Positions 11,823-14,163 of a DNA stretch of 44,342 nucleotides are shown here, piece by piece. The stretch comes from an uncultured Paenalcaligenes sp. (GTDB lineage: Bacteria > Pseudomonadota > Gammaproteobacteria > Burkholderiales > Burkholderiaceae_B), in contig CANROS010000006.1 of the NCBI GenBank assembly GCA_947632305.1, positions 1 to 44,342 on the forward strand. The letters are read 5' to 3'. Every line of letters begins with the position of its first letter. Position 1 is the first letter of the stretch. The notes beneath the pieces were generated by a model that did no database searches, was not told the origin of the DNA, and worked only from the letters and a program-made list of their open reading frames with translations. The position numbers were made by a program, and so were the translations under genes.

Positions 11823-12677
11823 ATGAGTAAATCTTATTTACGTCAGTTAGCCCTAGAGGCTTTGTTATTAGCTGATCCAGTTGCCAAAGCGAGTTTTGTG
11901 AAAGATTTGCAGTGGCGTTGGGGCTTGCCAGTAGGAATCGGTTTGGTGTTAACTGAGCCCCTAGCCGGTTTGCCCGGCCGACCACAAAAACCGCTTATTG
12001 TCCCCCCTCAGCAGGTCAAGCAACGTTCTTTGCATACCATTGAAGGTAGAGCCACTTTATTGCATGCTTTGGCGCACATTGAATTTAATGCCATTAATTT
12101 AGCGCTGGATATTATCTGGCGTTATGACGGGATGCCCGAGAGTTTTTATGGGGATTGGTTATGCGTGGCTTACGAAGAAGTACAGCACTTCGAGCTATTG
12201 AATCAGCATTTGCAACATTTGGGCTATGCGTACGGCGATTTCCCCGCCCATGATGGCCTGTGGGATATGGCAGAGCGTACCAAAAATGACTTGGTAGCAC
12301 GTTTGGCTTTGGTGCCCAGAACATTAGAGGCGCGAGGTTTGGATGCTTGTCCTGTCGTACGTGCCAAGCTAGCACATGCTGGTGATGAGCAGGCGGCAGC
12401 CATTTTAGATATTATTTTGCGTGATGAGGTGGGGCACGTGGCGCTGGGCAATAAGTGGTACCGGTGGTTGTGTGAGCAGGAACACTTAGATGCGATAGCG
12501 ATTTACCCAGGCTTGGCCACGCAGTACCGTGCACCTCGTTTACGAGGGCCGTTTAATATTCCTGCTCGTCTAGCTGCTGGTTTTCATGCGCAAGAGATAG
12601 AGTATTTACAGCAACAAGCCTCTCAGCCTGCTACACGTCCGATTGTTCCAGCAGAGGGGCAAACTCCCCAAACTTAA
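11823..12677 (+). CDS. DUF455 family ferritin-like protein
   Basis: Metal-ligand-like motifs AHIEFNAINLALD, EEVQHFELL, RDEVGHVALGNKWY. Confidence 0.85.
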   Translation: MSKSYLRQLALEALLLADPVAKASFVKDLQWRWGLPVGIGLVLTEPLAGLPGRPQKPLIVPPQQVKQRSLHTIEGRATLLHALAHIEFNAINLALDIIWRYDGMPESFYGDWLCVAYEEVQHFELLNQHLQHLGYAYGDFPAHDGLWDMAERTKNDLVARLALVPRTLEARGLDACPVVRAKLAHAGDEQAAAILDIILRDEVGHVALGNKWYRWLCEQEHLDAIAIYPGLATQYRAPRLRGPFNIPARLAAGFHAQEIEYLQQQASQPATRPIVPAEGQTPQT

Positions 12678-14163
12678 CTACGCGTCCAATAAATAAAATA
12701 GCGCCAGTCGGAGAGGAAGCACCTTGACTCGCTTCTAGTGTCATTTCAAATATTTGGCCTGATTCCACTGGGCCGATCAATTCGGCTGGCAACGTGACGG
12801 GTTGGTTGGGGTTAATTACCCCTAAAGAACGTATCTGAGTGTCGTTGGGGTGTTGGGTCCAAAGTTGAACACTTTGCCCAGTGGCGATCTCGGTACGGAC
12901 TTGAGGAGTGAGCAGCACGTGGCCTTCGGGATCTACGCTTAAGATCCAGCCAGGGGTAGTACTGAGGCCGGGGGCTTGAAGTACGGCACCGGCTTGAGGG
13001 CTCATTTGCACTAATTGCACTATGGGTGCTTTAGGCATAAAAGCCCAAATAGCAAAGGCACATAATGCGGTTAATACACCGCCTCCAATCCACCAACCTA
13101 GTTTAATTTTGCGTTCTTTTTTAGGAGGGGTGTCGTAGGCAGCCTCGATGAGCTCCGCTTGCGTTTGGGCGCTAAAGGAGGCTGGAGGTGAATCCAAAAC
13201 GGCACGTATGGGTTCTTTTTTGGGTGGTTTAATGACCGGTTCAGGGGTGCTTTGTTTGCCGTAATTCGGGGGATCTGGTGGGAGGCTATGGTCAGTGGGA
13301 GCGGTTTTTTCTGTATGCAGGATCTCTAGTAGACTAGCGCTTGGGGTCGTTGAGGAGACGGTGGCGGTAGGCTCTGGTGCTGGATTGGCTTTAGGGGTGC
13401 CTTGCGCCAATGCCTCGCTTAAAGGTAAGTGTAAATCTTGATAAATACGACTGAGCACATAAGCAGGAGGGGTGAGTTTAGGTAAGCAAAGCGCTAAATG
13501 GCTGAACACGTCCTCCCACAATAATAAGTCCTGGGTGGCGGTGGAGTCGGTTTGCAGCAACTGATGGGCTGGACTGGCTGTTTCGGCGTTATCTAAAAGA
13601 CCTAAGCAGTACTCGCCTAATAAAATCAGACTTTGATCCGAGTGGTTGTGCCAGCCTGTAAATAAGTGAGTTAAGCGCAGCAGGCCCTCTTGGAGGGAGT
13701 TTTTGGTTTGTTGAATGGATTCATGGCACTCTTTGGCAATCTCAGCATAATTAAAGCCATATAAATAGGCTAAAGCAATCATGTGTTTAGTCGCATCGCC
13801 TAGATGCTGAAATTGCAGTAGTTCAGGCGAAGCCGTGGCCGGAATATAAAATTGGCTTTTGGCTTTGGTTAGTGGACTAAGAGCTGCATTTTTTTGGCGT
13901 TTTTGTTGTGCTCTAAAGCGTAAAATGCTGTACATCCAGGCTCGTGCTGAGCCTAAGCTGGGGTCATAGGCACTGGCGTTACGCCAAATCAAAACCAGTG
14001 TTTCTCTTACTAGTTCTTCGGCATCCGAGTTGCGTTGCAGTAGGCTTTGGCCCAAAGCTAAAAAATGAGGCGCCTCTAGTTCATAGAGTTGCTTTAATGC
14101 CAAACTCTGTTTTTGAGCGCAGTGTTCTAACAATTCTTGGTAGGAGATGGTGCCGTTAGCCAT
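12631..14163 (-). CDS. Single-polypeptide ECF sigma factor fused to an RskA-type transmembrane anti-sigma factor
   Basis: N-terminal sigma2-like DAEELVRETLVLIWRNASAYDPSLGSARAWMYSILRFRAQQ and sigma4-like HMIALAYLYGFNYAEIAKECHESIQQTKNSLQEGLLRL; then anti-sigma-like LILLGEYCLGLLDNAETASPAHQLL...LPKLTPPAYVLSRI, a Pro-rich linker, TM WWIGGGVLTALCAFAIWAFM, and an RskA-like C-domain. Confidence 0.8.
   Translation of the reverse strand: MANGTISYQELLEHCAQKQSLALKQLYELEAPHFLALGQSLLQRNSDAEELVRETLVLIWRNASAYDPSLGSARAWMYSILRFRAQQKRQKNAALSPLTKAKSQFYIPATASPELLQFQHLGDATKHMIALAYLYGFNYAEIAKECHESIQQTKNSLQEGLLRLTHLFTGWHNHSDQSLILLGEYCLGLLDNAETASPAHQLLQTDSTATQDLLLWEDVFSHLALCLPKLTPPAYVLSRIYQDLHLPLSEALAQGTPKANPAPEPTATVSSTTPSASLLEILHTEKTAPTDHSLPPDPPNYGKQSTPEPVIKPPKKEPIRAVLDSPPASFSAQTQAELIEAAYDTPPKKERKIKLGWWIGGGVLTALCAFAIWAFMPKAPIVQLVQMSPQAGAVLQAPGLSTTPGWILSVDPEGHVLLTPQVRTEIATGQSVQLWTQHPNDTQIRSLGVINPNQPVTLPAELIGPVESGQIFEMTLEASQGASSPTGAILFIGRVVKFGEFAPLLEQSDV

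Follow-up and report, generated by a model that had tools for sequence, protein, structure and literature searches.

Introduction

Fusions of a sigma factor with its anti-sigma factor are already catalogued among the extracytoplasmic function (ECF) sigma factors and include IutY/ECF243, ECF48, ECF52, ECF53 and some members of ECF36 (PMC8999054). In IutY of Pseudomonas putida, a single-chain sigma/anti-sigma protein, the sigma domain is released by Prc and then RseP (PMC5411451), and an activator/inhibitor role has been reported for the RskA family (PMC7509140). Here, we describe a gene joining an ECF sigma factor and an RskA-type anti-sigma factor in one membrane-anchored polypeptide, carried by a 44,342-nucleotide stretch of DNA from an uncultured Paenalcaligenes sp. 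(the window; assembly GCA_947632305.1, contig CANROS010000006.1, positions 1 to 44,342), and follow its domains, its conservation and origin within the family and the constraint on each of its folded parts. A first-pass annotation made from the letters alone could not say whether such fusions are catalogued: as a kind they are known, while the literature searched yielded no recurrent fusion of the RskA type, nor any from this genus, and the main ECF reclassification paper may possibly mention it.

Domain organization of the fused protein

The first-pass annotation had proposed a single open reading frame (ORF) of 510 codons, which is real and lies on the minus strand. The encoded protein begins at its N-terminus with sigma2 and an eroded sigma4; a predicted anti-sigma domain of four helices, a proline-rich linker, a transmembrane helix and RskA_C follow in this order.

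12631..14163, minus strand: fused sigma/anti-sigma gene; 510 codons plus stop, uninterrupted ORF
13885..14094, minus strand: sigma2 domain, residues 24-93; RNA polymerase-binding/-10 region, well conserved (Pfam 6.6e-10; ratio of nonsynonymous to synonymous substitution, dN/dS)
13666..13827, minus strand: sigma4 domain, residues 113-166; predicted helix-turn-helix (HTH) fold, canonical GTVKS(W)xRR recognition motif lost
13639..13665, minus strand: fusion junction, residues 167-175; site of the ATGA stop/start overlap in unfused relatives
13405..13638, minus strand: anti-sigma domain, residues 176-253, with LGEYCLGLLDNAE motif; four predicted helices, relatives aligned
13114..13404, minus strand: proline-rich disordered linker, residues 254-350; weakly constrained (predicted local distance difference test, pLDDT, about 42-59; dN/dS)
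13042..13098, minus strand: single transmembrane helix, residues 356-374 (hydropathy and AlphaFold2)
12682..12993, minus strand: RskA_C extracytoplasmic beta domain, residues 391-494 in the model and 365-488 in Pfam
14194..14199, minus strand: TACAAT, candidate -10 element; lies 36 nt before the start of the fused gene

The fusion, the domain order and the membrane anchoring are borne out by Pfam, hydropathy, an AlphaFold2 model and the relatives. Sigma70_r2 (PF04542; residues 26-92, 39.1 bits, 6.6e-10) and RskA_C (PF10099; residues 365-488, 47.6 bits, 2.6e-12) both exceed their Pfam cut-offs of 24 and 29.4, whereas Sigma70_r4_2 (residues 124-164, 19.1 bits, E 0.001) stays under its cut-off of 25.7; the sigma4 of the fused protein is alignable with canonical sigma4 and shows HTH-like helices in the model. 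The cut-offs of NCBIfam SigK (64 vs 226 bits) and PRK12537 (74.6 vs 261 bits) are not reached. The full-chain AlphaFold2 model, built with 48 related sequences, is confident for sigma2, sigma4, the four anti-sigma helices (176-186, 193-205, 207-226 and 234-243, with a pLDDT of at least 90), the transmembrane helix and the beta domain, and leaves the proline-rich stretch disordered; hydropathy likewise gives one transmembrane helix, N-terminal to RskA_C. The anti-sigma region can be aligned to the N-terminal part of anti-sigma proteins that relatives encode separately; taken alone, this N-domain finds no Pfam model and no PDB sequence-profile match, a weak TnsA hit in the PDB profile search having been set aside as chance. 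The host genome, which is incomplete (86.5%), yielded no more than four proteins with Sigma70_r2 and a single one with RskA_C.

Fused and split forms among relatives

Genus and family searches followed by ORF analysis on raw DNA recover 26 fused sequences (the window included, one truncated by a contig end) distributed over nine genus-level groups of the same family (g1, g2, g6, g19, g22, g23, g25, g52 and g60), together with 13 loci of the family at which sigma and anti-sigma are two separate genes (L070 and L083-L094). Among named relatives, Paenalcaligenes hominis DSM 26613 (68%) and an uncultured Paenalcaligenes stand nearest, which puts the window in Paenalcaligenes or very close to it. 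In 13 of 13 split pairs, the ATG of the anti-sigma gene overlaps the stop codon of the sigma gene as ATGA, in the same relative frame, an arrangement that makes fusion mutationally easy. Group g60 holds both forms, split in G180 (GGCATGACAGATCAC) and fused in G179 (GGGATGGACAGATCAC), and the difference at their junction is a one-base insertion (ATGA to ATGGA) that puts both frames together. In group g52, the genomes G103, G104 and G108 carry a second, short RskA_C match (a 253-codon frame) besides the fused-type gene.

Outside the family, an order-level sample of 399 genomes yielded no recognised fused orthologue among the matches listed; the sigma matches listed from other families of the order lie in separate short frames or are parted from the anti-sigma by a stop codon. 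At the level of the class (369 genomes), nothing was retrieved at E 1e-40 outside the window's own genome. In G293:C225, G339:C245, G316:C1:902961, G532:C131 and others, which belong to other families of the order, the anti-sigma apparently continues the reading frame of the sigma after one stop, so that a single stop-codon change might fuse them.

Most fused loci, those of Paenalcaligenes included, are flanked by a pheT/integration-host-factor/merR/DUF455 block or by an ABC transporter/Rrf2/sufB block, and the same blocks (of the pheT or the ABC transporter/Rrf2/sufB type) flank the split loci L070, L083, L086, L087, L093 and L094; a TctC-like gene instead adjoins the fused loci of g22, g23 and g52 as well as some of the split loci. 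The maximum-likelihood tree implies five changes between the fused and split states, two of them forced by supported branches. A single clade of all fused sequences, and with it a single origin, is rejected by the approximately unbiased (AU) test when the same-genus pair is included (p = 1.8e-67); once L069 is left out, a single fused clade is not rejected (p = 0.18; p = 0.054 on a reduced set), which is why only two events are claimed here. On this sequence tree, the state has thus changed at least twice and possibly up to five times. While counts of changes cannot by themselves separate fusion from splitting, the split state is probably ancestral, because the ATGA overlap is uniform and the split state also occurs in other families of the order.

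Constraint differs between the parts of the protein. In close pairs with finite dS, dN/dS amounts to 0.01-0.19 for sigma2, 0-0.13 for sigma4, 0-0.09 for the anti-sigma bundle and 0.01-0.22 for RskA_C, while the linker reaches 0.07-1.1 in close pairs with usable dS; these are Nei-Gojobori estimates, with several pairs saturated in dS and noise in the short domains. Judged by these ratios, purifying selection is strong on sigma2, sigma4, anti-sigma and RskA_C and much weaker on the linker, all folded parts being retained.

Proposed mechanism

By analogy with described systems, the fused protein is rather likely to be a sigma factor that inhibits itself, is tethered to the membrane and is set free by regulated proteolysis, working in the manner of IutY and built in the manner of SigK/RskA. 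Its ancestor would have been a sigma/anti-sigma operon of the SigK/RskA type, with the genes overlapping at ATGA, which a small indel at the overlap would have turned into one gene. In the resulting protein, the cytoplasmic sigma2-sigma4 part would be held by the anti-sigma domain that follows it in the chain, the whole being anchored in the inner membrane via the transmembrane helix and exposing the RskA_C sensor outside. Upon an extracytoplasmic signal, a site-1 protease and then RseP would cut the chain near the membrane; in the freed cytoplasmic part, the anti-sigma segment would be removed or loosened, permitting RNA polymerase binding and directed transcription. In-cis inhibition and proteolytic release are in this sense what we infer for the fused protein, as are its transcription activity, its signal and its regulon. 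The proteolysis that the first-pass annotation had considered is plausible, given the IutY precedent and the M50 (RseP-type) and S41 proteases encoded in the host genome.

The junction in the window contains no in-frame ATG, GTG or TTG codon, the ancestral ATG being gone; some other fused genes do retain an in-frame start codon there. Since the window junction offers no start and the protein carries the only RskA_C found in the genome, its anti-sigma should act from the same polypeptide, presumably within its own chain or between identical chains, which supports for the window the 1:1 in-cis reading of the first-pass annotation. TACAAT is common to most split and many fused sequences, mostly 33-50 nt upstream; it resembles a housekeeping -10 element, in which case autoregulation would not be obvious.

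Several observations limit or weigh against this mechanism. In Foldseek, the sigma part matches best the SigK chain of the SigK-RskA complex, but a model of sigma alone does so equally well (TMt 0.74 vs 0.75); the match hence denotes a similarity of fold and is no proof of docking or of a closed arrangement set by the anti-sigma. The AlphaFold2 model therefore delivers the folded domains, whereas its use with Foldseek as evidence of in-cis docking was dropped. The proteases of the host genome add little weight in favour, because M50 proteases occur in 14/14 and S41 proteases in 10/14 control genomes. Ordinary recognition of the -35 element is doubtful because sigma4 is eroded. Finally, the fused ORF is broken in two Paenalcaligenes assemblies, in G006 by a deletion and a frameshift in the anti-sigma helices (L082 4203-4425; same record as L037) and in G009 by two compensating shifts in the linker (L074 3960-4060), which may reflect decay or assembly error.

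Erosion of sigma4 and alternative readings

A profile built from canonical relatives in other families gives sigma4 a median of 10.6 bits in fused sequences vs 36.7 bits in split ones (72 in L092); the drop in sigma2 is smaller (57.6 vs 79.7 bits). The recognition motif, PLGTVKSWIRRGL in other families, reads SIQQTKNSLQEGL in the window, and the recognition helix of the fused proteins has on average fewer basic and more acidic residues. The degenerate sigma4 noted at first pass is thus real, but it is not due to fusion as such: the sigma4 of the split L070, L086 and L091 is as eroded as that of the fused proteins, and the contrast between fused and split sequences is not phylogenetically independent, with only two supported independent pairs. 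Erosion is, from the sequences compared, a trait of this lineage, and in g60 it predates the fusion.

The lower sigma4 score and the altered charge of its recognition helix both speak for an alternative in which the membrane-tethered sigma factor does not read the -35 element at all: sigma4 would chiefly serve to dock its own anti-sigma, and RNA polymerase would be met via sigma2 alone, perhaps with a partner or as a local repressor or decoy, with no full proteolytic release. The purifying selection that persists on sigma4 fits as well, in that some role must remain. This alternative is nonetheless unlikely: erosion and fusion are not linked independently of phylogeny, the prediction for sigma4 is still an HTH fold, and the DNA contacts of sigma4 were possibly remodelled rather than lost. 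A bolder version, fairly improbable in our view, is that of a recurrently evolved one-protein transducer, whose sigma4 would have abandoned -35 recognition and turned into an intramolecular lock and whose sigma2-dominated factor, tethered or released, would steer RNA polymerase without a classical -35 element.

The eroded sigma4, the broken ORFs of G006 and G009 and the long branches of some fused lineages could also be taken as signs of a decaying pseudo-sigma, whose sigma function is lost and whose fusion is a relic; the low dN/dS of sigma2 and sigma4 compared with the linker and the full-length, intact ORFs across nine genus-level groups make this very unlikely. That a sequencing or assembly frameshift merged two ordinary genes, a worry raised at first pass given that split relatives are only one indel away from fusion, is practically impossible and refuted by the relatives, the fusion being repeated in 26 sequences from raw DNA, among them several closed, single-contig genomes and that of the isolate P. 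hominis DSM 26613, and the original ATG being absent from the window junction.

Neighbouring genes

The 3' end of the fused gene (12631-12677) overlaps by 47 bases the 3' end of a convergent DUF455 ferritin-like gene. On the other side, a near-perfect palindrome (ATATAGTACCGCTTTGGTACTATAT, 14251-14275) lies between the fused gene and a divergent Rrf2 regulator/SUF operon; it is kept in Paenalcaligenes relatives and is probably an Rrf2-type operator. Elsewhere in the window, translations alone indicate an aromatic degradation cluster at 28796-39615 (muconate cycloisomerase, catechol dioxygenase, benzoate dioxygenase-type genes, CoA transferase, thiolase and enol-lactonase), with it a LysR-type regulator at 27554-28477 and, at 41194-44000, two neighbouring genes resembling dynamin-type GTPases.

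Comparison with described systems

IutY (ECF243) resembles the fused protein in being one chain that runs from a cytosolic ECF sigma through a transmembrane segment to a regulatory C-terminal part on the outside (PMC5411451, PMC8999054). It differs in serving iron cell-surface signalling (CSS) with the receptor IutA through a FecR-like/CSS periplasmic domain, whereas in the fused protein the outer domain is RskA_C, the anti-sigma helices form a domain in the cytoplasm and there is a long proline-rich linker; no TonB-dependent receptor gene was recognised among the neighbouring ORFs. ECF48, ECF52 and ECF53 of Actinobacteria (e.g., SCO4117) similarly bear a C-terminal, membrane-bound anti-sigma-like extension (PMC8999054), but a zinc-finger (likely ZAS) domain is described for these, while the fused protein ends in RskA_C and the HxxxCxxC motif is absent from residues 176-253 and the aligned relatives.

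SigK/RskA of Mycobacterium tuberculosis (PDB 4NQW) comprises the same two protein types, RskA_C included, and SigK is the best PDB match in both sequence and fold; there the partners are two proteins, here they are one, with an eroded sigma4 recognition helix. Elsewhere in the family, sigma and the RskA-type anti-sigma are encoded separately (L070, L083-L094); these genes are homologues, many of them at the same locus, and differ in being two ORFs overlapping by ATGA. One family thus offers a natural series of split pair, split pair with eroded sigma4 and fused protein, with a one-base junction difference within one genus. Such a series lets one ask why sigma and anti-sigma usually stay separate, whether a sigma factor can work while tied to its inhibitor at a 1:1 ratio, and how the activator/inhibitor role of RskA (PMC7509140) plays out at fixed stoichiometry.
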